Assembly (NCBI RefSeq): GCF_002994745.2
Contig: NC_037090.1
Span: forward strand, 12,149,501-12,213,500
Source: Rosa chinensis
Taxonomy: Eukaryota; Streptophyta; Magnoliopsida; Rosales; Rosaceae
Direction of reading: 5' to 3'
DNA length: 64,000 bases
In this document: in pieces, positions 12,311-48,246 of the stretch
Layout: each line of letters starts with the position of its first letter
Numbering within the stretch: position 1 is the stretch's first letter
Program-made: the position numbers and the translations under genes
Notes under the pieces: model-generated
The model's database searches: none
The model's input: only the letters and a program-made list of their open reading frames with translations
Told to the model about the DNA's origin: nothing

Positions 12311-14792
12311 CTATCTGAATCGTACCCTCCGAGGCCCACTAACTTCAAATTCAGTAATCATTGAATCATTATCAATACTATCGGCAAAGTCTTTTTCAAT
12401 GTAGAGAACTATCAAATCATCAAGAAAGTCATATTCCATCTTATTTCGAAGTCTGTTTTTTATGATGTTCATAGATGAAAATGCTCTCTCTGTTGTTGCT
12501 GTAGAAACTGGCAGAGTCAGAACAAGGAAAATCAACCTGTAAATCATAGGAAAGAATGCAGACTTTCTTGATTCAACTAACCGCCGACACAAATCAGACA
12601 CAGAATTTGTGTTGGAAAATCTTGCATCCCTTTGAATATCTGTTAGAAAATACCCACACTCCATGTCTAGAGCATACATATCAGATGATGTAAAATCTTC
12701 AGAATAAAACTTCAAAGCAAGATTGCAAACATCTTCAGATTTGAATGAAACAAAATTATCACGAGGATCAAATGTAGCACTAAGAACAAGAAGCTCCAAC
12801 GAATTATCTTGAAATCTACTATCCAACTCTGCCAATTGAAAATCTATTACAGCATTAAGTATATTGACCCGATAATAATGCTCATTTGTAATATTTTGTT
12901 CAGAAGCCCTTATACCTTTCTTGTAAGGAGAAGACATATCCGGCATAATAATATCATACTCACAACAAAATGATGCAACCCTCATAATCAAATTATCCCA
13001 ACCATCTTCTCTCATATCTTGGAGTTTTGATTTTGTTATTGAAAGAAAGTTTAGAGCATTCAAAATGTCTATGGCTTTTTTTTTGCAATGACTGACAAAG
13101 AAAGTCAGTAATCCTCATGACATCATGCATCAAAAGCAAGCAAAACACAAAATCAAAACGCTCCATAGCCTTACCTACACTCTTTGCTTCTCCTTGTACT
13201 TTATTTGGTCCGTTTGCAACCAATTCGGCAAGAGTTGTTCGGGTGGCTCCAAATAATTTAATCAAACTTGATATAGATCGAAGATGTGAACCCCAACGAG
13301 TAGCCCCTGCTCGTTGCAAAGTGCAAGCCTGATTAGCCCCTGTTCTTGTACCAAGTGTACCAGCAGCCACTAACTCTACAATTTCTTCTTCTCTGATAAC
13401 TTTTAATGCTGAATGTCGTTTTGTAGAAGAATCAACAAAATTTACAATGAAGTTTAGAGTAGAGAAAAATTCCCAAATATCATGCACTCCTTTAGCTGCA
13501 GCATTTAAAGTCAATTGTAAGCGATGAGCAAAGCAATGCACATAATATGCAGATGGACACTCTTCACGAAACAAAGCTTGTAAACCATTAAATTCACCCC
13601 GCATGTTGCTAGCACCATCATATCATTGGCCATGCATGTTTTCTACCTGAAGATCATATTGAGCAAGCACTTTGGATATTTCATTTTTCAGAGTTTGAGA
13701 ACAAGTGTCTACAACACTAACAACTTTGAAAAACCGTTCTCTAATAAACCCATAACAATCAACAAATCGAAGAATGATAGCCATTTACTCCCTATTAGAT
13801 GCATCAACCGCTTCATCAACTAGGATACAAAATTTGGCATCTCCCACTTCTTCACGAATCTTGGTTCTAACTTTGTTGGCAAGAATATTGGCAATTTGTC
13901 TTTGAATCTCTGGAGAAATATACTTAGCATTTCCAGGAGCATTTTCTAAGACTTTTTGAACTTCTATATTCATTCTTCCAAAAGACTTCCTTACTGCATT
14001 GAAATTTCCACTATTGGATGAATCAATGGATTCATCATGCCCTCTAAAAGCACATCCTTGGTGGGCTAACAACCTTACACTCTCTATAGTAGTAATAAGT
14101 CAAAGTCGGTTATTTGCTACTTCTTGTGATGATTGTGTGCTAATCACTCTCTCAATATGCTTAGATGGGTTTCTTAGTGTCTCCCACTTATGCATGGCAG
14201 CATTATGTGGGGAATTTAATCCTCCCACGTGACCAAGAATGCCAGACTGTTTGGACATAACATTCTTCCAACCTTGAAACCCACACTTAGTGAATGCTGG
14301 ATGGTGGGATGGATAACTATCAAAGAGGAAACACGGGAAGCAATATGCTTTGTCCAACTCTTCGGAATACTCAAGCCAAGGCCAATCTTTGAACCATTTG
14401 GCATTAAATTTTTGACATTGACCTCCATCAAAAGAAGGTGGATACTTGCTTAACTGAGGTTGATATGGTCCTAAGACCACATAAGCTCTTCAAATATTGG
14501 CACGCTCATTCAAATGGTACTTGCATATTGGAAGTCGTATTCCTGGATCACGCTCAAGAGAACTAACATCAACATTTTCTTCTATCTCAATTCTTTCATC
14601 ACGACACTCTTCTAGTGGACTAGGTGGAGCAGTGTTTATAGGAACATCATTCACATAATTCTCAGTCACATTTCTACTCCCACTCCCACTCCCAATTTCA
14701 TTCCTAGTACCACTTGATGGAGTGTCACTTGTAAACCATGAAAGAATATTTTTGTACCGCTTGGGTTTTCGGCGATCCGTCATTTTATTCAA
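12311..14792 (-). pseudogene. hAT transposase, TTF-type/ZMYM1-like, broken by several stops and frameshifts
   Basis: Collinear blocks run from 14792 down to 12311. They are: an N-terminal basic segment (MNKMTDRRKPKRYKNILSWF); a TTF-type zinc-finger region with KDWPWLEYSEELDKAYCFPC; a DUF4371-like region with AKFCILVDEAVDAS; a core (YYVHCFAHRLQLTLNAAAKG, ATRWGSHLRS); and a C-terminal hAT dimerisation domain (TLPVSTATTERAFSSMNIIK). Breaks lie near 14488, 14100, 13785, 13620 and 13080 (a T-run frameshift), so no full-length protein can be made. The family is often annotated as zinc finger MYM-type protein 1-like in plants. It belongs to the surrounding element and has no host role that I can see. 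Confidence 0.85.
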
Positions 14793-17287: not shown

Positions 17288-17755
17288 ACTTCATCTTCAT
17301 CTGCAAGAGTCTGCAACGCACAAAATCTACAATTTCCATTGAATCCATGGAACCAGCTGAAACAATGATTCAGCATGAAAACAATAAAACAGAGATAGAT
17401 CCCAAAGTGATTTGATGATTCGATGAAAGTATTAATTGATGATTCAACATGAAAGCAATAAAATAATTAAAGTATTAATCTATGATAAGATGCCAATCCA
17501 TTGGTAACTCGATATCTTTATACTCATCGATGAGTTTTTGGGGGGTTTTTTGGATTCATTGGTATGTTTTCACATTTGGGATTTTTTTTTCTTTCCCATC
17601 AGATCTGTTCTCATGGTCCAGACGCCGCCGCCGGTGATGAGGGTTTTCGAAGACGAAAATGGCTTGTCATCTCCGAACGGCAGGGTGTCGAGCCTGAGAG
17701 AGAAATCGGAGCTAGAGAGGCGACAAGAACAAGGCGGGAGGACTTCGTGCTCTCT

Positions 17756-17990
17756 TGTTACGACTCTATCTTTATACATGGGCCATCATTGTTGTTTGGC
17801 CCTATTTGGGCTTTTCCTTACATGAGTCCATTACCTCTGGAGGCTTTCTTTGCTTAAATAGCTGATAGGAATTGTATGGAGTTATCAAAGAAATATATCA
17901 GTTTTATTTGCTTAGCTTTTCCTCTTGTTTTTCCTTTCCTTCCTTTTGCACCGATGTCGTTTCACAGTTACGATCTCAGAGATCGTATCA
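17756..17990 (+). repeat. 5' LTR of the chimeric retrotransposon
   Basis: 235 bp, TG...CA, direct repeat of 22325-22559 with about five substitutions. Confidence 0.92.
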
Positions 17991-17992
17991 AC

Positions 17993-18004
17993 TGGTATCA
18001 GAGC
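17993..18004 (+). promoter_or_regulatory. Primer-binding site (initiator Met tRNA)
   Basis: TGGTATCAGAGC two bases after the 5' LTR, complementary to the 3' end of plant tRNA-iMet, the standard primer of most plant LTR elements. Confidence 0.85.
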
Positions 18005-18074
18005 CCGCACCTGGGCCTGTTTCCCGTGAGTCCGGCGGTATGCGGCAGTGTGATATCCGGTGGGTGTTAAGACG

Positions 18075-18432
18075 CTCATTCTCATCACCCTCATGGTAGC
18101 CCTTGCTACCCACCACCTCCTTCACAATTTCCATCTCAACCAAGCTACCCACCACCACCACCACCTTCCCACACAATCATCAATGGTTATGTTTTTCCTC
18201 ACCAATTTCCACACCTTTCTGCAAATCATGCTCAATCGAGCACCGTTGCAGCTTTGCCACACAATTACCCATGTTCTCCGAACCAATGTTACACAAGTAC
18301 TGGGCTGCTCAACACCACACACCAATCACCTCTAATTCCAATTCACCCTCATCCAAGTGAAATCTATTACCCTTACCCACCTACCCAGCCTCATTTCATC
18401 CCCACAAAGCAGTCTATCCCTCCACTGCTCTG
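18075..18432 (+). pseudogene. Captured Pro/His-rich coding fragment, source unknown
   Basis: One frame stays open from about 18079 to TGA at 18432 and is very rich in Pro, His, Tyr and Ser (CYPPPPSQFPSQPSYPPPPP, then YYPYPPTQPHF). There is no start codon near its beginning. It could be residual gag leader sequence or a captured host fragment. I cannot assign it. Confidence 0.35.
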
Positions 18433-18445
18433 AGTTCCTCTTGTA

Positions 18446-19038
18446 GAACACTTGGAAGATCCCCAATTTTCAACTCCAACCGTGGCTAATGAAGATCTTT
18501 CTTCAATTACTCTCGAACTTGAGACGGGTCACATGGTAGAAACCAACATTTCTACTAAGCTAGCGGGTTTGGGGGGTGACGACGGGGTGAATTCTCAAAT
18601 TCATGGTGTGAATCCAGAACCAGTGGCCCAACCGTCTTGGTTGTTCAAGCAGACCGAACCACGGAGATTCACGTTACATGATGGCAATAGAAATGCAGGC
18701 ATTTGCTACAACAGTAGCTTGGGCTCCCAAGAGAACGCCAGTGATGGAACCTCCATTCACCAAGCTAAACCATGGTCTATCAATGACGTTGAAGTGAATG
18801 ATGCAAGGTTCGAATACCATGCTCTCTACCTGTTTGATACAATGCCTAGGCCAGATTTGTACTCATGGAATGCTATATTGGGTTGTTACTGTAAAGCTGA
18901 AGGGTTAATGGATGCTGGAGAATTGTTTCTAAAAATGCCTGAGAGGAACATTTTCTCGTGGAAAACTCTGACTACTTCTTTGGTCCGAAATGGTTAGGAG
19001 GAAAAGGCGTTGAGTGTTTATGATGCCATGATTTGGTT
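18446..19038 (+). pseudogene. Captured fragments: unknown acidic segment plus PPR protein piece
   Basis: The first ~110 codons (18452 on; EDPQFSTPTVANEDLSSITL) are not recognised. From about 18785 the frame turns into pentatricopeptide repeats (ALYLFDTMPRPDLYSWNAIL, LFLKMPERNIFSWKTL). A TAG sits where the motif continues ([12 protein letters not shown]). The PPR family normally binds organellar RNA; this is a short internal piece in element sense. A second PPR piece lies at 20994-21290 and may come from the same gene. Confidence 0.65.
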
Positions 19039-20107
19039 ACAGAGCATATCCAAGCTTCAAGCAGCTTTGGTTACGGCCGAGGATAATCTTTCTACACTTC
19101 CATCTGAGCCACCCTATTGTGAGTTTGAATATGTATTACAAGGATTGGGTTTTGAGCGAGGTTGGGGAGACACTACAGCAAAGGTATTGGAGTTGATACA
19201 TCTTCTCCGAGATATCGTAAAGGCTTCTGATCCTACTACCTTGAAGACATTTCTAGGGAAAGTACCAATGGTTTTTAATGATGTCATTTTGTCTCCACAT
19301 GGATACTTTGGGCAAGAGAATGTCTTAGGCTTACCAGACACCGATGGGCAGGTTGTCTATATACTGGACCAAGTGTGTGCCCTCGAGAATGAAAGGCGCC
19401 AAAAAGTCACTGAAACTACATGCAACCAGCGGCTAGAAAGAGTCACTGGAACAGAGCACAGCCATATTCTGCGAGTTCCTTTCAGATCAGAGAATGGAAT
19501 TCTTCGTAAATGGATATCAAGGTTTGATGTATGGTCTTATTTGGAGACCTTTGCTGAGGATGTTGCAGGTGAAACTACTGCTAAGTTACAGGGACATCCA
19601 GATTTTATTATTGGAAATTACAGTTATGGAAATCTTGTTGCATCTTTGTTGGCTTATAAAATGGGGGTTACACAGTGCACCATCGCGCATGCTTTGGAGA
19701 AAACAAAATATCCGGATTCAGATATCTACTAGAAAAAAATACGATGAGATTGAAAAGATGCATGCTCTCATTAAGGAGTACAACTTGAAAGGTCAATTTC
19801 GATGGATATCTTCCCACACTAACCGAGCACGTAATGGTGAGCTATATCGTTACATTGCAGATACTGGAGGTGCTTTTGTTCAGCCTGCACTCACAGTTGT
19901 GGAGGTCATGACTTGTGGCCTTTCGACATTTGCCACAATCCACGGTGGTCCTGCAGAGATCATTGAGCACGGTATATTCGGATATCATATCGACCCTTAT
20001 CACTCTGAACAGATGGCTGCAATTGTGGCTGATTTCTTTCAATGTAGTAAGGAGGATCCTAGCTACTGGAAGAAAATTACAGATGGGGGCCTGAAAAGAA
20101 TTCCTAA
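19039..20107 (+). pseudogene. Captured sucrose synthase cDNA fragments (spliced, rearranged)
   Basis: The frame enters sucrose synthase at [13 protein letters not shown] and continues through [39 protein letters not shown] and [20 protein letters not shown] to [20 protein letters not shown]. After a stop and frame change at about 19735 it resumes with [38 protein letters not shown] and [14 protein letters not shown]. The enzyme normally interconverts sucrose+UDP and UDP-glucose+fructose. Whole segments are missing (after the DQVCALENE block and before the KYDEIEKM block), and [10 protein letters not shown] differs from the usual IIGNYSDGNL. Plant SUS genes have many introns and none are visible here, so the source was mRNA. 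Confidence 0.85.
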
Positions 20108-20993
20108 AGACTTTGATGTGATCACTACATCTAATCTTAAGCAGATCAAGAGGCAGTTCCATAGTGCACAAATTGTCAGACAACGATTTGCTACATGTAT
20201 GGTGCATATTAAAGGTTCTGTCATAGAGGTATCCAGTTTTGAAACGGTGGTAAAAGTGAAACACTCTGATAAAGAAGTTACTTTCTCTCAAATGCCAAAG
20301 GGTTGTGATAAGAAAGATTTCATCCGCTGGAGAAACAGCATGCATCGAGATTTCATAATTAACAATTTGTTCTTTGATCCTTTATCAAATAAAATCTTTG
20401 ATTATGCAAATGGGATGGCAGATTTGAGATCCTTAAAGGTACGGTTGTTAGGCTCCGCCAAGTTGTCATTTAAAGAGGATTGCGCACGAATTTTACGTGG
20501 CTTAAGAATTGTTGCTTGTCTGAGTTTGTCAATTCCAAAAGAAACCGAGACAACTATATCTATGTTTTCTTCATCCATTTTGACATTGGCAACGAGTAGA
20601 ATTATGATGGAAATGAACTATATGCTTTCTTATGGAGCTGCTGAGCCATCTCTCTGTCTGCTTTGGAGATTCAATCTACTCAGAGTTCTACTTCCAATTC
20701 ATGTAGCATACTTGGATGAACAGAGTATTAGGAAGTTTCCTCATAATTCCACGATGTTGATGAAACTATTCTTTAATTTGGATAAAGTTGTCACAGTTGA
20801 TCGACCTTCTGACTGTAGTTTATGGGTAGCTCTCCTAGCTTTTCACATGGCACTGGTCAGTCACCCTCAAGACGCTCCTGTGGTGTTCACCTTTGCTTTT
20901 ATCCTGTATCATGGGGGATGCAAAAAGGGTCTTAAATTTGCTAGAGACAATGCTCAAGTGATTGTTGACTATCTACCTGAGATCTCAAGTTCA
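20108..20993 (+). pseudogene. Captured poly(A) polymerase / tRNA nucleotidyltransferase-family cDNA fragment
   Basis: Continues the frame of the SUS piece: [20 protein letters not shown], then [69 protein letters not shown] and [20 protein letters not shown]. The R-D-F-T-I-N and R-xx-R-x-x-R-F-type motifs characterise the class II nucleotidyltransferases (PcnB/CCA-adding family, organellar in plants). The nucleotide-binding GGxxR/DxD start is missing, so it would be inactive. The fusion to SUS is in frame but biologically meaningless. Confidence 0.82.
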
Positions 20994-21400
20994 TATCTTC
21001 GAAGAATACAAATTCGGGGCTTTGAGCTTGATGAGGTCACATATATTAATTTGCTTATAGCATGTGTCAAGTCTGGTGATATAAAAAGTGGCCATCAAAT
21101 GTCCGATAACATCTCATGCCCAAATGTGATTTCAGTGAATGCCTTTATCTCTGTCTATTCCCAGAAGCAAGACCACATGGAGGTAATCAAGATTCTCAGG
21201 GAAATACAGTTTCGGGGTGTGCAACTTGATCAAACTACATTGGCAATTGCCTTCGGCTCAAGTGCATCAATGGGGATATTTGCATGGAGGACCATTCCAC
21301 TTTCCACCTTTATGATTCTTGGTGCATTGCTGATATCAGTCTCACATGCAATGATACGTCTTTATGTGCATAAAATTCTTGTTGTGATTCTACCTTTATG
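20994..21400 (+). pseudogene. Captured PPR fragment followed by a hydrophobic segment
   Basis: PPR motifs [40 protein letters not shown] and [16 protein letters not shown] run to about 21290. A hydrophobic stretch of unknown origin ([17 protein letters not shown]) joins on in the same frame. Probably from the same PPR parent as 18785-19038, but in a later portion. Confidence 0.65.
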
Positions 21401-22110
21401 GATTGATGAAGACTATTATGCACGTGTTGAGGGGAGAGAAATTATCTCCAATCTTAGTAAAGCAACTGCCTCAAAATTTTTATTAAATTGGTTGGTCTAG
21501 CCCGAGCATGAATACCGCAAATGGTCTGCTACAATTTCTCTTGGATTAATCTCAAATTGCCTACATGTTACTGATCATAAGTGGGAGTTTGAGAATATAA
21601 CAAGACTTGTTGAGGTGATGTGTAGTAGCAAAAGCACCCTAGACAAGATGTCAGAAAGGGACCTGCTCGGTGACGTAATTAAGGAATCATTATGCATGAT
21701 AAGAGAGATCACTCATGTGGTTCCTGATATTTTGGAAAGTTCCTCTGCTTATTTCCCACCTATCAGACATGATATAACTACCAGTATAACTGTTGAGTTG
21801 TCAAAAGAGAACTGCAATAACTCTCTCGAAGATCTCTGGGGTTTGGCTGGACTAGTTCTTGGTTTGTCGAGTCCTGTTGGTGCAATGTATAGAGTTGGAG
21901 GGCCTGATGCTATTTTCAAGATACAAGATGTTATGGTATCATGGGTTCTGCATAAGAATATACCGGTTCAAGGCTCATTTCATCATCTTCTGCAATGGGG
22001 TAGCACATTGTTCATTTTCTACCTTGATTTTTTCTCTCCTGTCTCCATTTATGGTTGCTTCTTTTACAAGTTGGGGTCTGCTTTTGACAATATGATGGGC
22101 TGTCCAGCTA
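21401..22110 (+). pseudogene. Captured RST1-like (focadhesin-type) cDNA fragment
   Basis: Blocks [17 protein letters not shown], (stop) EYRKWSATISLGLISNCLHV and WEFENITRLVEVM, then after a frame change FPPIRHDITTSITVEL and EDLWGLAGLVLGLSSPVGAM, resemble the C-terminal part of the large plant protein RST1 (RESURRECTION1, DUF3730/focadhesin-like). The TAG at 21498 and the frameshift near 21600 break it. The assignment is from memory and should be checked. Confidence 0.5.
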
Positions 22111-22324
22111 GTCAGCATCCTTGATTATGCTCTTGGAACTTCACTCCATGCATTTGGCAGGTATTGGGATAAAATCTTCTTGTGGTTGGCAATATCTACA
22201 GTTCTGGATCCTTAGATGTCAAAGATAATTTTTGGTGACGTAGATGATGAAGCAGGGACAAGTTTTGGAAGACAAATCAGGCTTGAGGTCAAGCTCTCAA
22301 GCCTGTTCTTTGAGCGGGTGGAAA

Positions 22325-22559
22325 TGTTACGACTCTATCTTTGTACATGGGCCATCATTGTTGTTTGGGTCTATTTGGGCTTTTCCTTACATGAGTCCAT
22401 TACCTCTGGAGGCTTTCTTTGCTTAAATAGCTGATAGGAATTGTATGGAGTTATCAAAGAAATATATCAGTTTTATTTGCTTAGCTTTTCCTCTTGTTTT
22501 TCCTTTCCTTCCTTTTGCACCGATGTCGTTTCACTGTTACGATCTCGGAGATCGTATCA
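22325..22559 (+). repeat. 3' LTR of the chimeric retrotransposon
   Basis: 235 bp, same as 17756-17990; followed at once by TSD copy TCTCT. Confidence 0.92.
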
Positions 22560-22867
22560 TCTCTCAGTGGAAGCAATAACGAAGACAGTAATGGCGGAGG
22601 AATTAGATACATATCCACAATCCCCACAGTCACAACTACAAGTAAATATCTCTTGAACTTTTATCAATGTTCTCAGAAATATTTCAAATTGTCGAAGGGA
22701 AGGGTTGACTTGGCTAAAGCCTCATATATATACTGATTCTTGATAGTGGAGGGAGATTTTGGTTTGGGTACAGCTTTGGGTGATGAATTTGTCTCACCAT
22801 GACTTGGCTTAGGTTATGATTCTTGAGAGAATTCTTCTGCTATGTGTCTTCAGAATATAAAGAATTA

Positions 22868-28581: not shown

Positions 28582-28930
28582 GAAACTCGATGTAGGATTG
28601 CCAATTAGTCAATCCCTACATTTTCTATATATAACAGTACTCCATACATTCTTTATTCTTTTTTGGTGAAATCACCAGCTTCACAATCAGTAAATTGTGG
28701 TGCAGTTGTTAACAATAAAATGTCGAAGGTCTTTGTGTATATTTTATACTACTTCGTAAAAAAATTGTAAATACACCTCAGTTGAATATGCATACGTACA
28801 GAATTGTTCAGATCTTCCAAATGTGAATAGTTTGTCATATGGCTCAACATCTATCAGACAACGTATATATTGCATTCCAATTACACAATAAGAGGATCTC
28901 TCCAGAAAAATGATATCAAACCGTTCCGCA
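28582..28930. other. 3' flank of TR2
   Basis: Presumed TR2 3' UTR with AATAAAATG at about 28715 as a possible poly(A) signal; ends in the TSD CCGCA of the copia element. Confidence 0.5.
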
Positions 28931-29230
28931 TGTAAGGATTATAGTGATGGTCAAGATGGTCAAGGTTCACTAGTCTTACGAGTAAGCAAGGCAACAGCTG
29001 TGGCTACTAAGGCTGACACGTGTGATGATAAGACTGGTTATCAAGAATTAATTACTATAACTAATTAGCTGAGTTTGTTAGAGTAAAACAGAATTTGTTA
29101 AGCCTAATTCTATATAAAGGCTATGTAAGAATCCCGTGGACCATTCATTCAATATCAGTCACTATTCTTCATCTTCTTCACTCTCTCTCTCTCTTACTTC
29201 TCTGCAAACTCCAGATCTTACATTTTAGCA
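28931..29230 (+). repeat. 5' LTR, copia 1
   Basis: 300 bp; contains CTATATAAAGGC (TATA) about 125 bp before its end. Confidence 0.92.
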
Positions 29231-29239
29231 TGGTATCAG

Positions 29240-29700
29240 ATACCATGATAACATTACCACCATGATGCTATAAGCTTAGAGCTTAAGAAAGAAGACGATA
29301 TACTCACCGAGAGGAAGAGAGTGTTTCAGACAAAATAGCTGAGAGATATTTTCCACAAACTGAATCCAGTACAAATTATTACAACACAAGAGCTATTTAT
29401 AGCAACAAAAACATAAAACCACGAAAAAGAAAAACACACTAGTAGCTAGCTATTACAGACTGTAAAGCCACATAAGCAACAGATGGCTACTTCATGCATT
29501 ACAGCTGGACAACATTTTATTGGCAGATTGATGACTTCATACTAGACCATGCACTTCATGTTGACTCGCTAACAGCTCCCCTCAATCTCAGTGGGGGATA
29601 GCACACTGAGATTGGTACAATGTTGCTTAAACACTGGGTTATGAAGACCTTTGGTAAAAACATCAGTAGTTTGACTTTCTGAGGTACATATTGAAGCAGA
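29240..29700 (-). mobile_element. Antisense copia fragment (RNase H tail plus LTR start) in the leader of copia 1
   Basis: On the minus strand, TSESQTTDVFTKGLHNPVFK encodes the conserved end of a copia RNase H. A GGGGAG-type polypurine stretch and TGTTAGCGAGTC, a likely LTR start, follow. This family differs from the host element. It replaces the normal short leader between PBS and gag. Its borders are estimated. Confidence 0.6.
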
Positions 29701-29804
29701 AGATCAATCTTTTCCTATTCGATCTCTCATTCTTTTCCTCTTCGATCTCTCAATCTTTCTTCTCCGATCTTATCAAGATTCAAGTTTTTTGTTCTTGAGC
29801 AACA

Positions 29805-30362
29805 ATGGTGGCTACTGCTGTGACTCTTCTTGCTAATCTCTTAAGCATCGTCTCGGTCAAACTCGATGACAACAACTATCCCACATGGCATTTTCAGCTT
29901 CGATCTTTGCTTCTTGCTGCTGAGTCTGAGTTAGAATGTGACACAAAATCTATGTCTATGACCTCTATGACTGCAATGGTGGTAAAGAATGGTTCTGTTG
30001 CTTCTCAAGATTCCAAGGGAATTTTGCCTACACCTATGCAAAATGGCTATAATGGCTTTGCTGCTTTTAATAATGGAGGCAGAGGTAATGGTGGAGGCTA
30101 TAGGAACAATGGAGGAGGTTATAATGGGGGATTCAGAAACAATGGAGGAAATGGATTCAATGGGGGAAATGGAAGATTCAGAAACAATGGAGGCAATGGT
30201 TTCAACTCTGGTTGGAACAATGGGAATAGGAATGGGAATCAACAGCAGTTTGGTGGAAATGGAAACAGAAACTTTGGTAACAATGGAGGTTTTGGTGGTT
30301 ATAGGCCTCGGATTGTTTGTCAGATATGTGACAAACCAGGTCATTCATCTCAGACATGCTAG
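29805..30362 (+). pseudogene. Copia 1 gag with a large internal deletion
   Basis: It starts MVATAVTLLANLLSIVSVKL and reads DDNNYPTWHFQLRSLL. It then passes directly into LLAAESELE, which in copia 2 lies after the ~180-residue UBN2 gag domain, so that domain has been deleted at an SLL/LLAA microhomology. A long Gly/Asn-rich region follows, then a CCHC knuckle (CQICDKPGHSSQTC). A TAG stands where copia 2 has Trp. The minus-strand Ser/Ile-rich ORF opposite is a shadow of the Gly/Asn repeat. Confidence 0.8.
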
Positions 30363-33300
30363 CATCTCAGCAAGGTCAATGGTTCTACTTCAGCTTCAAA
30401 CATTCTTGAGTGTCAACTCTGTGGCACAAATGGACACTCTGCAACTGAGTGTAGTCAGAGACTTCAGTTTGCTAAACTGCAAGGTCAACAGTGTGCAATG
30501 ACTGCTTCTTTGCAGCAGAATCATACAACTCCTAATCATGAAGTGTGGATCACAGATTCTGGTGCTTATTCTCACATGACATCAGACATTCAAGTTCTCA
30601 ATAATGTCACATCCTATTCAGCTGGTGATCAAGTTCAAGTTGGTAATGGTGCAAGTCTTTCTATCAAACATATTGGCAATGGTTCAATTTTTCTTAACAA
30701 AAATGCTTTGTTGACACTTAGAAAAATATTACATGTTCCAAAGCTTGCTGCACAGCTTCTGTCTGTCTATCAATTATACAAGGACAATAACTGCAGAATG
30801 ATTTTTGATGAGTTTTCATTTTTCATACAGGGCAAGGTGACGGGCAAGGTGCTGTTTCAAGGTCTCAGTGAGAATGGACTCTATCCTATACCTGTGTCAA
30901 CCTCCAGAAATCTTTTCAACTCATCTTCCATTTCAGAGTCAGCTTTTCTTGGATCAAAAGTCACTCAGTCTCTATGGCATAGAAGATTAGGCCATCCTTC
31001 CAATGCTATGACATCGTCTATGTTAGCAAAGTCTAGAGTACCTTTTCAATCTGTTGAGTCATCTAGTGTTTGTGAGTCTTGTCTTGCAGGCAAGTTTACT
31101 AAACTGCCTTTTCCTACAACTTGTACTAGGTCATCTACACCTTTTCATATAGTTCACTCTGATGTATGAGGTCCCTCTCCACATGTATTCATTGAAGGTT
31201 TTAAGTACTATCTCACCTTCATAGATGATAGTACTCGATTTTGTTGAATTTTTCCACTACATAATAAAGCAGAAGTTTGTTCAAAGTTCATTGCTTTTCA
31301 TTCCTTTGTAACAACTCAGTTTGCTTCTGTTATTAAAATTTTACAAACTAATGGTGAGGGTGAATACCATAGCCATATTTTCCAGTCTTTTCTTGCCAAA
31401 AATGGTATTATCCATCAAAAGTCATGTCCATACACACCACAACAAAATGGACTTGCAGAAAGGAAAAATAGACATATTGTAGAAATTGCAATTACTCTTC
31501 TTCATCAGTCCTTTCTCCCTCCAAAATTCTAGTTCCATGCTTGTGCAATTGCAGTATTTCTTATAAACAGAATGCCTACTCCCACTTTCTCTATGTCTTC
31601 TCTTTTTAAGGTGTTACACTCAAAACCACCTTCTCTGGAGTCATTAAAAGTCTTTGGATGTGCTTGTTTTCCCTTAATGAAGCCTTACAATTCAAACAAA
31701 CTCCAAGTCAAAACTGTTAAGTGCATCTTCTTGGGGTATGCACCAGAGTATAAGGGTTTTATTTGTTTTAATCCTTCCAATTCCAAGTTCATCATTTCCA
31801 GACATGTTGTGTTTGATGAGTCTTCTTTTCCCCATCAATTTCTTAGTTCGTCATCTCAGCCTACTTCTTTTACATCATCATCCTCTCATCCTGTTCAAGT
31901 TATTCTTAGACACCCTTCTAGAAATAAAAATTCAAGTTCTACAGTCCATTCTGCACAGCACCTAGCCACACCTGTCCTCCCTACATCAACACAAGATCAA
32001 TCTTGTTCAAGTTTAGTGCCTATTCCTGCAGTACAACTTCAGAGTTCAGTGTCTCCTATTGCAGGGCAACTTCAGCTATCTACTCCTTCTCATTTATCTG
32101 ATATCGATAAAACTGTTCCTAGCTTTTCAAGTGATTTTGTTCTTTAGCCTGGAGAAGTGTATATTCCTATCTCAGCCATTGAGATTCATTTGAATCCTCC
32201 TGCTACAGAAACAGCTGGTATTATATCTACCTTCATCCCTCAATATGAGATTTCTAAAGTTTCTGTTAATCCTCATGTCATGACAACTAGAAGCAAGAAT
32301 GGAATATTCAAAAAGAAGGCATTTGTTGCTTCTGCATCGTGTGACCTCAATGCTATAGAACCTTCTTCGTATAAAAAGGCTATGGAAATACCAGTTTGGC
32401 AGCAAGCAATGCAAGAAGAATTTGACGCATTAACCAAACAAGGAACTTGGATTTTAGTTCCTCCTCAAGCTGATAAGAATTTGGTAAGCTGTAAGTGGGT
32501 TTTTAAGGTAAAGAGAAATTCGGATGGTTCCATTTCAAGGCAGAAAGCAAGATTGGTGGCAAGGGGTTTTAGTCAAGAAGAAGGTATTGATTATGTAGAG
32601 ACTTTCAGTCCAGTTGTTCGGCATACAACTGTGAGACTTGTTCTTGCTATGGCAGCTCAATTTGGGTGGAAATTACATCAATTGGATGTTAAGAATGCTT
32701 TTCTTCATGGTATTTTGAAGGAAGAAGTATATATGTCCCAACCACCTGGTTTTGAGGATCCAAAGTATCCAACTCATGTCTGCAAGTTACAAAAGTCACT
32801 TTATGGACTTAAACAAGCTCCAAGAGCTTGGAATGAAAGATTTACCTCTTTTCTACCTCAGCTGGGATTCAAGTGTTCTATTGCAGACCCCTCTTTATTC
32901 ATTAAGAGTTCTGGTTTTTGTCATGTATATCTCCTCTTATATGTAGATGATATTATACTTACAGGCAATAGTGCTTCTGCAATTCAGTATGTTAAAGATG
33001 CTCTTAAGAAGGAATTTGAAATGAAGGATTTGGGACTATTACATTACTTCTTGGGATTACAGATTACCTATTTACCAAATGGAAGTTTATTCATTTCACA
33101 AGCTAAGTATGCAAAGGATATTCTTGATAAAGCTGGAATGACTGATTGTAATGCCAGCATCACTCCATGCTTACCTTATTCCAAGTTGCTCAAAGATGAG
33201 GGAGCTCCATTTAAAGATGTCAAAACGTACAGGAGTATTGTAGGATGCTTGCAGTAGCTAACTTTCACCAGACCTGACATTGCATATAGTGTCAATTCTG

Positions 33301-33941
33301 TGTGCCAATTTATGCAAAATTCGACTGAAGTACATTTTCTGGCAGTCAAGTGCATTCTAAGGTACATCAAAGGTACTCTGAACTATGGTATTACTTTTAG
33401 AGCTGCTTTATTGGAGTTAAGAGCCTATACAGACTTGGATTGGGCTGGTGACCCTAATGATAGAAGGAGCACAACAGGATTTGTCATATTTCTTGGTAAC
33501 TGTCCAATCTCTTGGAGCTCACGCAAGCAAACTTCAGTTTCAAGGTCTTCAACAGAGGCCGAGTACAGAGCTATGGCCGACACTGCTTCAGAAGTTCTTT
33601 GGCTGCGACATTTGTTGAATGATCTTCATGTCAAGTTACCTTCTGCTCCTACATTACACTGTGACAATGTTTCAGCCTTGGCCCTTGCTTCGAATCCAAT
33701 TCATAATTCCAAGGTCAAGCATGTGGAAGTGGATGTGCATTTCACTAGGGAAAAAGTGGCCAGAGGTGAGCTAGCTACTCAGTTTGTTCCTTCCTTGCAA
33801 CAGCTAGCATATATCTTGACAAAAGGACTTGGTTCTCCTCAGTTCAAATATCTCTGCTCCAACCTGGTGCTTGGTTCCCTGCATCAGTTTGAGGGGGGAT
33901 GTAAGGATTATAGTGATGGTCAAGATGGTCAAGGTTCATAA
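30363..33941 (+). pseudogene. Copia 1 pol: protease, integrase, reverse transcriptase, RNase H, with multiple stops
   Basis: A second knuckle is followed by the protease (TDSGAYSHM, 30552 on), then the GAG_pre-integrase zinc region (LWHRRLGHPSN ... CESCLAG) and the integrase core (HSDV; QQNGLAERKNRH). RT follows (32157-33257; WKLHQLDVKNAFLHG, LLLYVDDIIL), then RNase H (33300-33941; STEAEYRAMADT, TKGLGSPQF). Stops fall at about 31167, 31246, 31531, 32145 and 33256. The integrase motif reads QTNGEGEY where copia 2 has QADGGGEY, so a catalytic Asp is lost. RT itself is a continuous frame, but no full polyprotein can be made. Confidence 0.9.
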
Positions 33942-34201
33942 GTCTTACGAGTAAGCAAGGCAACAGCCGTGGCTACTAAGGCTGACACGTGTGATGATAA
34001 GACTGGTTATTAAGAATTAGTTACTATAAGTAATTAGCTGAGTTTGTTAGAGTAAAACAGAATTTGTTAAGCCTAATTCTATATAAAGGCTATGTAAGAA
34101 TCCCGTGGACCATTCATTCAATATCAGTCACTATTCTTCATCTTCTTCACTCTCTTTCTCTCTCTTACTTCTCTGCAAACTCCAGATCTTACATTTCAGC
34201 A
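33900..34201 (+). repeat. 3' LTR, copia 1
   Basis: 302 bp; longer than the 5' LTR by 2 bp in the CT-rich tract; followed by TSD CCGCA. Confidence 0.92.
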
Positions 34202-38908: not shown

Positions 38909-39251
38909 TGTCTACTGAAAGTAGGGTTTGGATGAAAGAAGAAGTTGAAGAAGAAGAGGATGTAACAGAAAGAGAGAGAGAATTGAGAATAGTGATGTAA
39001 TTGTTTGATTAAGCTTGAAGTATTACACTGTAGCTATGCTTGTCTCTATATTCCAAAGCCTGTAATTAATCGTAACTGATTAACCCTAATTAGTTACTAA
39101 TTAACCATAATTAGTTACTAATTAACCCTAATTAGTTAAGCTCAGCTAACTTCGTTTCTTGCTGAACAATTTCAGCCCTACACGTGGACTTTGGGGAAGC
39201 CTTGACTTGATTGTTGACTTTGACTTCATCACTAGTTTGATCATTGCTACA
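38909..39251 (-). repeat. 3' LTR of copia 2
   Basis: Minus strand: begins TGTAGCAATGATC just after the polypurine tract and ends CAGTAGACA (343 bp). It contains a small tandem of CTAATTAGGGTTAATTAGTAA units. The end was chosen from TG...CA; no second LTR copy is available to confirm it. Confidence 0.6.
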
Positions 39252-42113
39252 TCCCCCCTCAACCGAATGGTTAGGACCAACCATGAGGTTGCCACAAAGA
39301 TATATGAACCGAGGAGAGTCAAGGCATTCAGTGAGGATGTCAGCAATCTGTTGAAGGGATGGAACAAATTTCAAAGCCAGTTCACCATGTGCAACTTTCT
39401 CCCGAGTAAAGTGGACGTCAACTTCGACATGCTTCACTTTGGAGTTGTGGATGGGATTGGAGGTAAGAGCGAGTGCAGAGACATTGTCACAATGAAGGGT
39501 AGGAGCAGAAGGCAAGGGAATTTGCAAGTCATGTAAAAAGTGCCGAATCCAAAGAACTGTAGATGTTGTATCAACCATTGCTCTATATTCTTCTTCAGTG
39601 GAAGAACGAGAAACTGAAATTTGTTTGTGTGAGCTCTATGAGATTGGACAGTTACCAAGAAAAATGACAAGCCCTGTAGTACTTCTTTTATCATTAGGGT
39701 TGCCAGCCCAGTCAGAGTCAGTATAGGCCTTCAATTCAAGCGGAGCTCTCCTGAATGTAACACCATAGTTCAAGGTACCTTTAACATAGCGAAGAATACG
39801 CTTCACAGCAAGAAAATGAACATCTGTGGGGGCTTGCATAAATTGACAAACTGAGTTGACATTGTAAGCAATATCAGGACGTCGTGTAAACGTGAGATAT
39901 TGCAAGCAGCCAACAATGCTCCTGTAAGTCTTTATATCTATAAATGGAGCACCTTCATCTCGGAGCAACTTTGAATTGGGAAGACAAGGAGTAATGCTTG
40001 CATTACAATCCAGCATACCAGCTTTTTGCAGGATTTCAGAGGCATATTTGGTTTGTGAAAGAAATAGACCACCATTAGGAACATATGTGATCTGCAGACC
40101 AAGAAAATAGTGCAACAATCCCAAATCTTTCATGTCAAACTCCTATTGAAGAGCAGACTTGACTTGTTGAATTGCATTAGCATTGTTGCCAGTGATGATA
40201 ATGTCATCAACATAGAGGAGTAAGTAAACATGAGAGGAGCTCGAGCTCTTGACAAATAGAGAAGGATCAGCAATACAGGACTTGAATCCTAGCTGAGGTA
40301 GGAAAGATGTAAACCTCTCATTCCAGACTCTTAGTGCTTGCTTTAAGCCATATAGATATTTTTGTAGCTTACATACATAATTTGGATGCTCTGAGTCCTC
40401 AAAACCAGGCAGTTGAGACATATAAACTTCTTCCCTTAATACTTCATGTAGGAAGGCATTCTTAACATCGAGTTGGTGAAGTTTCCAACCAAATTGGGCA
40501 GCTAATGCCAAAACTAATCTAACAGTGGTATGCCTGACAACAAGACTGAAGGTTTCAGCATCATCAATACCTTCTTCTTGGCTAAATCCCCTTGCAACCA
40601 ATTTGGCTTTTTGTCTTGCAATAAAATCATAAGAGTTTCTCTTAACTTTAAAAATCCATTTGCAACTTACTAGATTTTCGTCACGGTGAGGTGGAACCAA
40701 AGTCGAGGTTCCCTGTTTGGTAAAAGAATTGAATTCCTCATGCATAGCTTCTTTCCAAACTAGAATCATCATGGCTTTCTTGTAGGACTGAGGCTTAACA
40801 GTTTCAGGAGAAGAGGTAATGGAGGTAACAAAAGCCTTCTTTTTGTATATGCCATTCTTGCAGATGAGTGTTGAGAACTAAAGTAGCTAGCTGTGGACTG
40901 AGGTTGGATGTTATGGACATTTGCAGCAGCAGATATAGGAATGTAGACTTCTCCAGGAAATAAACTAGGATCAGTGGATGAGCTTGGTGCATCATTTATA
41001 GTAACAAGAGCAGGGACAGTAGAGAGTGGGGAGGAAACTGTAACATCTGCATGAGCAGTCACATCTGCAATACTTGTCGAGGTGTGAGGCATGGTGGTGT
41101 GTGGATGAATGAGGCTTGTAGGGAAGTCTAAGAAGAAATGGAGTTGGAGGACTTGGACTACGAGCAGAAGGAGTTGATGAGCTCGACTGTATGAATTGAT
41201 GTGGAAAGGACTGTTCATAAAAAACAACATGTCTGGATAATGAATTTGGAGTTGGAAAAATTAAAACAAATGAACCCTTTGTATCTAGGTGAATAACCTA
41301 GGAAAATGCACTTGACAGTTTTCACTTGAAGCTTATTGGTATTGTAGGGTTTCATAAGTGGGAAGCAGGCACATCCAAAAACTCTTAATGATTCAAGTGA
41401 TGGAGATTTAGAATGAAGTAACTCGAATGGTGAGGACATAGACAATGTTGGAGAAGGCATTCTATTAATGAGGAACACTGCTATGACACAAGCATGGAAC
41501 CAAAATTTGGGAGGTAGAAATGCTTGATGAAGAAGTGTAAGAGCTGTTTCAACAATAATATGTCGATTTTTCCTTTCTGCAAGGCCATTTTGTTGGGGCA
41601 TGATTTTTTATGAATAATACCATTTTTGATGAGAAATGTTTGAAGTCTATGGCTTATATACTCACCACCACCATCAGCTTGTAAAATTTTAATAGAAGTA
41701 GAATATTGATTAGAAATGAAGGAGTGAAAGGCAATGGACAAGGAACAAACTTCTGATTTATTATGTAATGGAAAAATCCAACAGAATCTGGTAAAATCAT
41801 ATATGAGAGTGAGATAGTATTTGTAACCTTCTATGAAAACATAAGGAGATGGCCCCCATATATCAGAGTGGACTGTATGAAATGGAATAGATGATCTAGT
41901 ACTAGACTTTGGAAAAGGCAATTTTGTGAATTTGCCAGCTAAACATGACTCACAAATACTACTAGAGAAATCAGAAGATGAACTGACATTAGACTTTGCT
42001 AGCATTGGGGAAGTAATATCATTGGATGGATGATCAAGTCTCTTATGCCAAAGTGCGTGAGATACTTTGGAACCAAGAAAGGCTGTGTGTGAGGTTGAAG
42101 ATGGTGCGAACAA
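39252..42113 (-). pseudogene. Copia 2 pol, 3' part: integrase, RT, RNase H
   Basis: Minus strand: LWHKRLDHPSN (zinc region), then QADGGGEYISH, LAERKNRHIIVETA and PPKFWFHAC (integrase). Next come WKLHQLDVKNAFLHE and LLLYVDDIIITG (RT), KDLGLLHYFLGLQITY, and RNase H (VDTTSTVLWIRHFLHDL, ALTSNPIHNSKVKHVEVD). Frame breaks near 41600, 41220, 40770, 40140 and 39600. The four Trp codons that are stops in copia 1 are still TGG here or in the upstream part. Confidence 0.88.
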
Positions 42114-42129
42114 GCACTACTAGGATAAA

Positions 42130-42990
42130 GGTCATAGACATCAGTTCACAACTGATGTTAAAAAAAAAAAAATCCGATGTCTTAGTGGGCGATGTTAAAG
42201 ATCGCCAAAACTAAGACATCGGTTTAAGGTCCAGAACCGATGTAAAAACATTAATGTGATCACCATTTTGGTGTGTTTAGCTATTGCCAAACCTTCATAT
42301 TTTGGCATTAGATGCTTAATGAAATATAGGTCTAACAATACAATTATCCATTTTAACATCATTTCTGATTTAGAAACGATGTCTGATAATATTTTAGACA
42401 TCGGTTCTCATAAATTTTTTCTTGTGGTTCATAAGCTTTTCGTGTGTTTGGTACATAATATTTCACTAGACATTCAATCTATATTCTATAGTATAGTTTG
42501 AACTGATGTCCATATTTATGTTAGACATCGGTTTTGTTTATATATCGATGTCCATAGTTATTCTAGACATCGGTTTTTCTTTATATATCGATGTCCATAC
42601 TTATTTTACACATCGGTTTTGTTTATATATCGATGTCCATTGTTATACCAGACATCGGTTTTTGTTTATATATCGATGTCCATAGTAATCTAGACATCGG
42701 TTTTGTTTATATATCGATGTCCATAGTAATGCTAGACATCGGTTTTTGTTTATATGTTGATGTCTATATTTATACTAGACATCATTTTTGTTTATATATC
42801 GATGTTCATAGTAATGCTAGACATCGGTTTTTGTTTGGTAACTGATGTATTTTCTCATTCTTGACATCGGTTTTGGTTTCCAAACTGATGTATTTTCTCT
42901 TTTCTGACATCAGTTTTTGTTTTCAAACTGATGTAATTTGTGTTTTCTGACATCAGTTCTTCATAAGTAACTGATGTTTTTTTCATATCC
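42130..42990. repeat. Subterminal repeat array of CACTA A
   Basis: At least fourteen occurrences of GACATCGG / GATGTCC-type motifs in alternating orientation, spaced about 25-40 bp (for example TAGACATCGGTTTTGTTTAT and ATATCGATGTCCATAG). The right end has fewer (47130-47260: CAGTTC...CCGATGTT). In CACTA elements such arrays bind the TNPA-type protein. The regular spacing is not CRISPR. Confidence 0.85.
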
Positions 42991-47020: not shown

Positions 47021-47283
47021 AATCAGTCGTGGAAAGACTTAAGTGTTGGGAGGGAGTTAAAAATTTGGTCCCGCTTCCTTAATTTTTGACTTAGTACATT
47101 TCCGCGTTTTTTTTAAATTTTGTTTGAAAAGTATAGACATCAGTTCAGCATAAGAACCGATGTTAATTATTTTATAGAAATCAGATTTTTTAGAACCGAT
47201 GTTATAAACACAATTTACATCAGTTGAAATCCTAACTGATTTTAAAGACATGATGTCTATTAGCATTATTCTAGTAGTGAAGT

Positions 47284-48246
47284 TTCTGGAAATGGAGACT
47301 GGGATGGGATGGCCATGCTCACTGAGACCTTGGAATAGCACCCTGCCTGTCACCTTGTCTTGTATAAAGAAGCAAAATTCATCAAATATCATTCTGTAAT
47401 TGTTATCTTTACATAACTGATAAACAGATAAGAATTGTGTTGCAAGCTTTGGAACATGCAAAATTTTCTTCAATGCAAGAACAGCATGCTTACTAAGAAA
47501 GATAGAACCATTGCCAATATGCTTGATTGTCAAACCTGCACCATTTCCTATCTGGACATGATCACCAGTTACATAAGTTGTGACATTATTGAGAGCTTGA
47601 ATATCATATGTCATGTGTGAGGAAGCTCCTGAATCAGTGATCCAAACTTTATGAGTTGGTGTGGCAAGAGTGTGTTGGAGGGAGGTTGTCATGGCTGTGT
47701 GTTGCCCCTGAAGACTGACAAACTGTTGTCTTTGATTACATTCAGCAGCAGAGTGTCCAAGATTGCCATAGAGTTGACACTCAATGACTGAGGGAGATTC
47801 CATATTGCCTTGAATTTTGCTAAGATGCCAGCAAGTTTGAGCAGAGTGGATTGGCTTATCCCATATTTGACAAATAATTATTGGTTTGAAGCCACCATTG
47901 TGTCCATTGTAGCCATTGGAACTCTGAAATCCATTTGTTGGTTTGTTGGCAAAGTTTCTTGAGCCATTGTTTCCTTTGTAAGCATTATTCCAACCACTAG
48001 GATTGTTTCCGCCATTATAGTTTCTGAAACCTCCATAGTTGCCACCATTGTTGTTTCAAAAACCTCCATTATTTCCCCCATTATTGTTTCTAAAACCTCC
48101 ATAGTTGCCACCATTGTTGTTCCTAAATCCATTATGGAAGGCAGCAAGGCCGTTATAGCCATGATAGGTAGGTGTAGGCAAGATGCCCTTAGCATCCTGA
48201 GACTCAGATGAACAAGAAGAATTCTTGGCTACCATGGCAGTCATAG
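47284..48246 (-). pseudogene. Copia 2 gag C-terminus and protease
   Basis: Minus strand: MTAMVAKNSSCSSESQDAKG, then Gly/Asn/Phe-rich repeats (GGFRNNNGGNYGGFR), zinc knuckle remnants (CQLYGNLGHSAAEC) and protease TDSGASSHM. The frame runs into the CACTA insertion after PIPVSISRNF. Frame breaks near 48057 and 47850. Confidence 0.82.

Follow-up and report, generated by a model that had tools for sequence, protein, structure and literature searches.

Capture of host genes by long terminal repeat (LTR) retrotransposons has so far been known mostly from isolated cases or counts. Bs1 of maize is said to exist in very few copies and to have kept a gag-related part. The available part of a review (PMC13317346) describes Bs1 as an LTR element with three host-gene pieces in a hybrid frame, and Veju and BARE-2 as chimeric LTR elements formed by template switching between packaged RNAs. 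In the available text on GmaRetroS15 and the terminal-repeat retrotransposons in miniature (TRIMs) of soybean and Medicago, the elements are short-LTR and non-autonomous, contain exons only, and in one case carry three-gene pieces (PMC4717578), while that on rice and sorghum reports hundreds of host genes inside LTR elements (PMC3726574). We analyzed a 64-kb stretch of the Rosa chinensis genome (C3:12149501-12213500 in a 515-Mb assembly; hereafter the window, in whose numbering element positions are given), which holds at 17756-22559 an LTR element filled with pieces of host genes. An earlier note on this element had taken transduction of a single host gene as the known precedent; with three transduced genes in Bs1 and three-gene pieces in GmaRetroS15, as those partial sources give them, the record is richer.

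The window element is one decayed member of a rose family of non-autonomous LTR retrotransposons. It has paired LTRs, a target site duplication (TSD), a primer binding site (PBS) and a polypurine tract (PPT), and the TCTCT duplication, 235-bp LTRs (5 mismatches, no gaps), initiator-Met PBS and purine tract described in the earlier note were all confirmed. The interior was said to lack retroviral-type domains, and Pfam found no gag, pol or reverse transcriptase domain in the five interior sense frames scanned in the window copy, nor any reverse transcriptase, integrase or gag in the scanned frames of fetched siblings. TRIMs measure about 1.5 kb or less and lack coding capacity, and large retrotransposon derivatives have LTRs of over 4 kb around a conserved non-coding interior. 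The rose copies have short LTRs of ~210-290 bp, as TRIMs do, falling into diverged groups, and a coding mosaic interior of 3.1-6.2 kb in 12 copies (only 1.5 kb between the LTRs of L050; L-numbers denote genomic loci or copies) with frames of up to 1424 codons.

Like Bs1, the family carries intronless host exons acquired by an RNA route (splice sites unchecked for L013). A gag-related remnant was not detected by Pfam, and length-limited searches returned no known relative of the N-terminus outside the Rosa mosaics. Unlike Bs1, the family comprises 23 paired-LTR copies compared here, with no gag or pol in the scanned frames, cargo that varies, and a frame whose start codon is in the LTR and whose stop, in young copies, is at the PPT. 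The rose copies are mostly ~3.5-6.7 kb long with pieces of several genes, whereas the soybean and Medicago TRIMs are 1.2-1.4 kb with short pieces, and the available part of that account (PMC4717578) has no element-wide open frame such as some young rose copies possess. As far as it is available, PMC3726574 describes no multi-gene mosaic family with a common start and stop, and the Veju and BARE-2 chimeras contain unknown or retrotransposon sequence rather than serial host mRNAs (PMC13317346, in part). An LTR element with captured host exons is thus a known kind. Among open-licence papers, none of the titles we found concerned a rose family of this sort or a constraint to stay open, and within that literature a serial multi-gene mosaic family whose end-to-end frame stays open with little amino-acid constraint appears to be new. 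The features of the window copy are as follows (SUS, sucrose synthase piece; PAP, poly(A)-polymerase/CCA-adding family piece).

17751..17755, no strand: TSD TCTCT, left copy
17756..17990, +: 5' LTR (TGTTACGA...TATCA), 235 bp
17954..17956, +: ATG 37 nt ahead of the LTR end, opening the family frame MSFHSYDLRDRINWYQSP..., with an identical position in 16 of 16 copies
17991..18005, +: PBS ACTGGTATCAGAGCC, initiator-Met type, read in frame as W-Y-Q-S
17991..18600, +: family leader and Pro-rich N-terminal coding part, partly common to siblings; first ~100 codons amino-acid constrained
18604..18745, +: block without assigned origin, adjoining PPR piece A
18746..19034, +: PPR piece A, At4g20770-like; protein identity 69% to Rosa, 75% to Rubus
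19035..20102, +: SUS, 8 segments from one gene, separated there by 7 gaps, 3 of them exact GT-AG introns
19437..21497, +: open frame, 687 codons stop to stop, over SUS (part), PAP, PPR piece B and SF3B1
20090..20994, +: PAP, 10 exons joined; 9 of 9 gaps are GT-AG introns; 13-nt microhomology overlap with SUS
20993..21355, +: PPR piece B
21348..21473, +: SF3B1 piece, residues 638-679 of the 687-codon frame
21458..21976, +: presumed RST1-like piece, parent locus C2:86.15 Mb (genome BLAST)
21641..22324, +: 3' part, found whole or nearly so at five other genome places with 80-81% identity
22312..22324, +: PPT GAGCGGGTGGAAA, directly ahead of the 3' LTR
22325..22559, +: 3' LTR, 235 bp
22560..22564, no strand: TSD TCTCT, right copy

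Searching the genome with the LTR for sibling copies, as the earlier note had proposed, gave at least 40 matches (in the scored part of 65 first-look candidates). The 23 paired-LTR copies compared are the window copy, 11 fetched siblings, L027, L031, L032, L034, L042, L045, L046 and L048-L051. Chance LTR-like repeats were rejected as an explanation, as siblings have the same LTR, PBS and PPT together with TSDs. A 3' palindrome next to the PPT, AGGCTTGAGGTCAAGCCT, is recognizable (at most 3 differences) in 16 of 19 copies. Within the window, the element itself is the only copy with this PBS.

The copies are united by a single reading frame that spans the element. An ATG lies 37 nt before the end of the 5' LTR in all 16 copies first examined; of seven later copies, L045, L046, L048, L049 and L051 have the LTR start, L042 has it displaced by one base, and it was not found in L050. 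In the window copy, the 5' LTR has a TATA-like TTAAATAG at 17854 and no ATG from 17886 up to the start at 17954. The family frame reads like MSFHGYDPGDRNNWYQSPQLGLFPVSPA..., with the PBS inside NNWYQS, followed by the Pro-rich stretch. At the other end, the last stop or frame break falls at most 50 nt from the 3' LTR in 14 of 22 traced copies and earlier in the others, except for L013, which has no stop ahead of its 3' LTR. The C-terminal ends differ between copies.

Young copies can be open over their whole length. L016, whose LTRs are identical, is open for 1424 codons, and L014, with one LTR mismatch, for 1357; each fuses several unrelated domains into one LTR-to-PPT frame. Counting the minimum number of lesions from ATG to PPT, neither has any besides the terminal stop, compared to 38 and 30 on their antisense strands and ~40 in shuffled sequences. 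Over 16 copies, the minimum ranges from 24 to 60 lesions for antisense strands, and the averages for shuffles from 29 to 61. One interior lesion each was found in L013 and L031, which have no LTR substitutions. Lesion density climbs with LTR divergence (rho 0.59, P 0.004, 22 copies, leaving out L050 with its short interior and missing ATG), and the correlation is 0.67 without L015 and L017 (20 copies) and 0.80 when L042 is also removed (19 copies). The window copy, with 2.1% LTR divergence, dates to roughly 0.8 million years at a plant substitution rate of 1.3e-8 per site per year. Its frame is broken by stops at 18068, 18431, 18995 and 21498, by a frameshift near 19735 and by two further lesions within the final 230 nt.

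The open frame is accompanied by little constraint on what the cargo encodes. Comparing L016 with L044, L033, L034, L045, L046, L047 and L032 over 0.7-2.0 kb at 77.5-81.8% identity, the ratio of nonsynonymous to synonymous substitution rates (dN/dS) of the cargo was 1.04, 1.00, 0.99, 0.76, 0.85, 0.87 and 1.08, respectively. L016 has no stop in these seven alignments, and the siblings have 0-3 stops in aligned codons. Other sibling pairs gave 0.25-1.34, most of them 0.5-1.25, with the reading frame of each pair taken as the one with the fewest stops. We then assigned substitutions to branches by per-site agreement among relatives rather than by a tree model. The branches taken as transposing, namely internal ones or L014's own, have 197 missense (88+40+9+30+7+23), 60 synonymous and 0 nonsense changes, where 10.6 nonsense changes are expected (Poisson P 2.5e-5) at 0.054 per missense from codon composition (0.051-0.061 depending on weighting). 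The other terminal branches carry 9 nonsense changes with 132 missense (Fisher P 3e-4).

The N-terminus behaves differently from the cargo. Across seven copies its dN/dS was 0.26 for the LTR-encoded part, 0.09 for the codons of the PBS, which are constrained as RNA in any case, 0.61 in codons 19-38 and 0.29 beyond; L045 and L046 compared to L016 gave 0.38-0.39. The start codon in the LTR, the element-spanning frame, its openness without sequence constraint and the inheritance of blocks within the family are all absent from the earlier note.

In the cargo of the window copy, Pfam and PDB comparisons identified PPR, sucrose synthase, PolyA_pol together with the RNA-binding domain that belongs to it, PPR and SF3B1, all in sense. 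The earlier note had listed PPR, sucrose synthase, poly(A) polymerase, PPR and RST1-like pieces in one sense; the first four were recovered, SF3B1 had been missed, and the last name is presumptive: neither the piece nor two frames of the locus it derives from had a Pfam match. The 668-codon frame given there holds when counted from the first ATG at 19494.

Mapping the blocks to parent genes, another step the earlier note had called for, was successful for SUS, PAP and the RST1-like piece. In genome BLAST, 10 segments at C2:10.054 Mb match the PAP block with 90-98% identity, and another copy of the gene lies at 10.123 Mb; the parent is Rosa LOC112190917, 91% identical in protein, and all nine parental gaps (81-788 bp) are GT-AG introns removed exactly in the element. 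The SUS block matches 8 segments at C6:56.716-56.719 Mb (91-98%), where gaps of 82, 206 and 495 bp are GT-AG introns exactly removed. For the other four SUS gaps no gapless GT-AG solution was obtained, and the largest of them (944 bp) takes in coding sequence skipped here. We therefore dropped the description of this block as eight exons. Compared to its parent at C2:86.154 Mb, the RST1-like block lacks a 178-bp GT-AG intron and a 96-nt coding stretch. In total, 13 exact GT-AG introns were lost across the three parents. The junctions vary: 13 nt at the SUS-PAP junction are common to both parents, ~2-3 nt are shared at PAP-PPR, and 0-2 nt at PPR piece A-SUS.

One further intron is informative within the family. 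The family locus L025 keeps a 237-bp GT-AG intron at the 18745/18746 edge, and since this intron is absent from the window copy, the latter probably passed through spliced RNA after the lineage already had block 18604-18745. In L025, L027 and L028 (C5:57.47, C1:55.39 and C6:30.83 Mb), ~233-236 bp of extra sequence lies between blocks that are directly joined in the window copy. L022, L023, L025 and L026 were set aside as candidate parental genes; the first two have LTR-like stretches and L025 has a PBS motif.

Among the copies scanned, cargo differs from one to the next. Matches are from Pfam where marked.

L010: weak H+-PPase, mitochondrial carrier (Pfam)
L012: EBP2, H+-PPase, GRAM (Pfam)
L013: importin-alpha, sucrose synthase, SMP/C2 (synaptotagmin, SYT), importin-beta
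L014: RPL6, PPR, NDR (Pfam)
L016: EBP2, ARM/HEAT, PPR (Pfam)
L031: FKBP (weak) and DUF913, which we take to be UPL1-type (Pfam)
L048: RPL6, EBP2 (Pfam)

Pfam had no match in one frame each of L011, L019 and L031. The L013 pieces also trace to genes of the same genome: importin-alpha to 5 segments at C3:6.151 Mb (92-99%), SYT to 7 segments at C2:2.157 Mb (91-99%), SUS to C6:56.716 Mb (91-94%) and importin-beta to C1:66.928 Mb (89%). Large blocks of L016 are common to other loci at ~80% identity, which indicates that inheritance of blocks within the family goes on alongside new capture. L016 and L017 are near-identical mosaics (97.5%), with ~2 kb of extra, stop-rich sequence near the 5' end of L017.

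A single SUS gene (C6:56.716 Mb, locus L020) contributed to both the window copy and L013/L035. Separate captures are likely but not proven: the SUS pieces of the window copy and L013 are 84% alike and each is nearer to the gene, while a point counter to this is that the piece in L035 (C3:9.844 Mb, cargo as in L013) is 98% like the window copy over 128 nt, as is the gene.

We think it fairly probable that these non-autonomous elements acquire mRNAs through template switching and survive chiefly as long as their RNA can be translated from end to end. In the mechanism we propose, the RNA probably begins in the LTR and would be packaged by another element's proteins. Because of the intron loss, sense orientation and microhomology, we envisage that reverse transcriptase leaves the element RNA for host mRNAs packaged alongside it and then returns, in some cases where short homologies exist. 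The resulting chimeras would be in any frame, and mainly those translatable throughout would keep transposing. RNA quality control is the most likely filter that would eliminate the rest. With an early stop, the 3' untranslated region (UTR) could reach ~4 kb, of the kind removed by plant nonsense-mediated decay (NMD), whereas a stop at the last possible place would limit it to the LTR plus a few dozen bases; host exons could thus fill the space after a conserved N-terminal peptide without adding stops. Unusually long 3' UTRs are targets of plant NMD, according to the available part of PMC8116306. Translation-dependent silencing is described for a plant Ty1/copia element in the accessible part of PMC8892269, so ribosome passage itself may matter.

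A more far-reaching version, which we hold to be nearly evenly poised, is that the lineage is selected for translatability alone. It would take up host coding sequence at random as a filling free of stops, allowing its RNA, with a start in the LTR and a stop at the PPT, to pass surveillance by the host; a continuing filter would then sort chance mRNA fusions for open frames and spread full-length chimeric proteins through the genome.

Several observations weigh against persistence through end-to-end translation. Only two of the eight copies below 1.2% LTR divergence are free of interior lesions, the young copies L009, L010, L048 and L049 carry 5, 3, 2 and 5, respectively, and the fitted lesion intercept is 0.5-1.1 per kb, not zero. 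L010 and L011 share long near-identical blocks despite a damaged N-terminal frame, and a simple one-frame RNA is harder to posit when some family loci retain an intron. Where L016 is aligned with older siblings, many of the gaps are not multiples of three (10 of 15 with L044), and indels lie outside the model. The two sibling pairs with dN/dS of ~0.25 are L010 and L011 versus L012 over a 3' block, window blocks versus their parents gave 0.52-1.01, and such ratios leave room for some amino-acid constraint on the cargo. In the branch test, we chose the split after the counts were seen; L016's own 8 missense changes are counted among the terminal branches, and the L044 branch (71 missense, 0 nonsense) is in neither group because it mixes both states, and would weaken the contrast if taken as terminal. 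The template-switching mosaic proposed in the earlier note gains from the lost introns, the microhomology and the siblings, but its enzyme donor, an autonomous partner that would mobilize the family in trans, was not found in a limited search. L028 and L035 were considered as autonomous copies from their LTR spacing and rejected, the long frames in their fetched parts being family N-terminus, PPR or importin/SYT-type cargo. Protein searches limited by protein length did not find the N-terminus shared with an autonomous polyprotein.

The long protein itself might instead be what is needed, with an N-terminal peptide that has to be produced in cis as a Gag-like or RNA-binding part, and with cargo that would be acceptable as a tail or spacer in frame at the C-terminus. 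This account, which we consider unlikely but worth weighing, would explain the conserved ATG, the low N-terminal dN/dS in seven copies (0.26 for the LTR-coded part, 0.29 beyond codon 38) and in the two further comparisons, and the 1191-1413-aa proteins of two Rosa species that begin with similar N-termini. However, an element needing only its N-terminus should tolerate stops in the cargo, and no stop appeared on the branches that we counted as transposing; copies differ in their C-terminal ends, codons 19-38 are less constrained, the leader may be conserved as RNA, and neither Pfam nor length-limited protein searches found similarity to known Gag. The constrained N-terminus suggests a peptide function as well, which could act together with an RNA filter. 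It is improbable, in our judgment, that openness was merely inherited, with host exons stop-free from the start, captures recent and in-frame joins due to luck or ascertainment. Some blocks are 97-99% identical to their parents, leaving too little time for stops to accumulate, and only two copies among those examined are fully intact, but other blocks differ by ~20% from siblings with L016 still open, the nonsense changes expected on transposing branches are missing, and L016 and L014 join unrelated domains in one frame.

That the mosaics are functional new host genes lying between LTRs by chance seems very improbable. Several are annotated as genes, including P0002, P0134, P0144, P0142 and P0143, yet cargo dN/dS is near 1, the domains are truncated, and lesions increase with LTR divergence (rho 0.59). 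Capture at the DNA level by a Helitron- or Pack-type element followed by LTR insertion was rejected and is hardly credible given the 13 introns lost against the SUS, PAP and RST1-like genes, the segment gaps for importin-alpha and SYT, the sense orientation of the domains found, and the position of the cargo between PBS and PPT, even though multi-gene capture is typical of such elements in the available part of PMC13317346.

The finding is largely explained, and its interest lies more in the family than in one copy. The family offers many related mosaics whose parents are present in the genome that carries them and whose ages can be read from LTR divergence, so that the rate of capture, the rules of junctions and the fate of captured pieces become measurable. 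The openness constraint, if true, would explain why captured pieces share one frame, and would point to RNA quality control as an influence on what transposons contain and as an assembler of multi-gene fusion frames.

The mosaics also bear on annotation, as some long "genes" in the rose annotation are such elements. Mosaics annotated as genes include P0002, P0134 and P0144 in R. chinensis, and P0142 and P0143 in R. sericea. These proteins are gene models in which predicted introns may skip lesions. P0002 (382 aa, "putative sucrose synthase") is 100% identical to the frame of the window element over the aligned part, with the last residues differing, and P0134 has the same N-terminus as the mosaic proteins described next. 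The N-terminal 400 residues of L014 as a query returned five proteins, in a search limited by protein length that does not settle the range outside Rosa: two, from Cucurbita and Linum, contain an RPL6 domain, their matches spanning 10-11% of the query, and the other three are mosaics of 1191-1413 aa, two from R. sericea and one from R. chinensis.

In the surroundings of the window copy, the insertion divides an open, exon-like stretch (17508-17755, VLMVQTPPPVMRVFEDENGLSSPNGRVSSLREKSELERRQEQGGRTSCSL before the element; 22560-22736, SGSNNEDSNGGGIRY after it), and the element may interrupt a gene there. A copia-type element with 265-bp direct repeats (97%) and interrupted gag-pol frames lies at 28930-34163, where the initiator-Met PBS motif of the mosaic element was not found. 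Two more broken coding stretches on the minus strand, 39132-42116 and 47057-48055, are presumably also copia-type. Minus-strand transposase frames at 12311-13622 are, we assume, hAT-like, and a tandem array with a period of ~85 bp and two alternating variants occupies 42437-42921.

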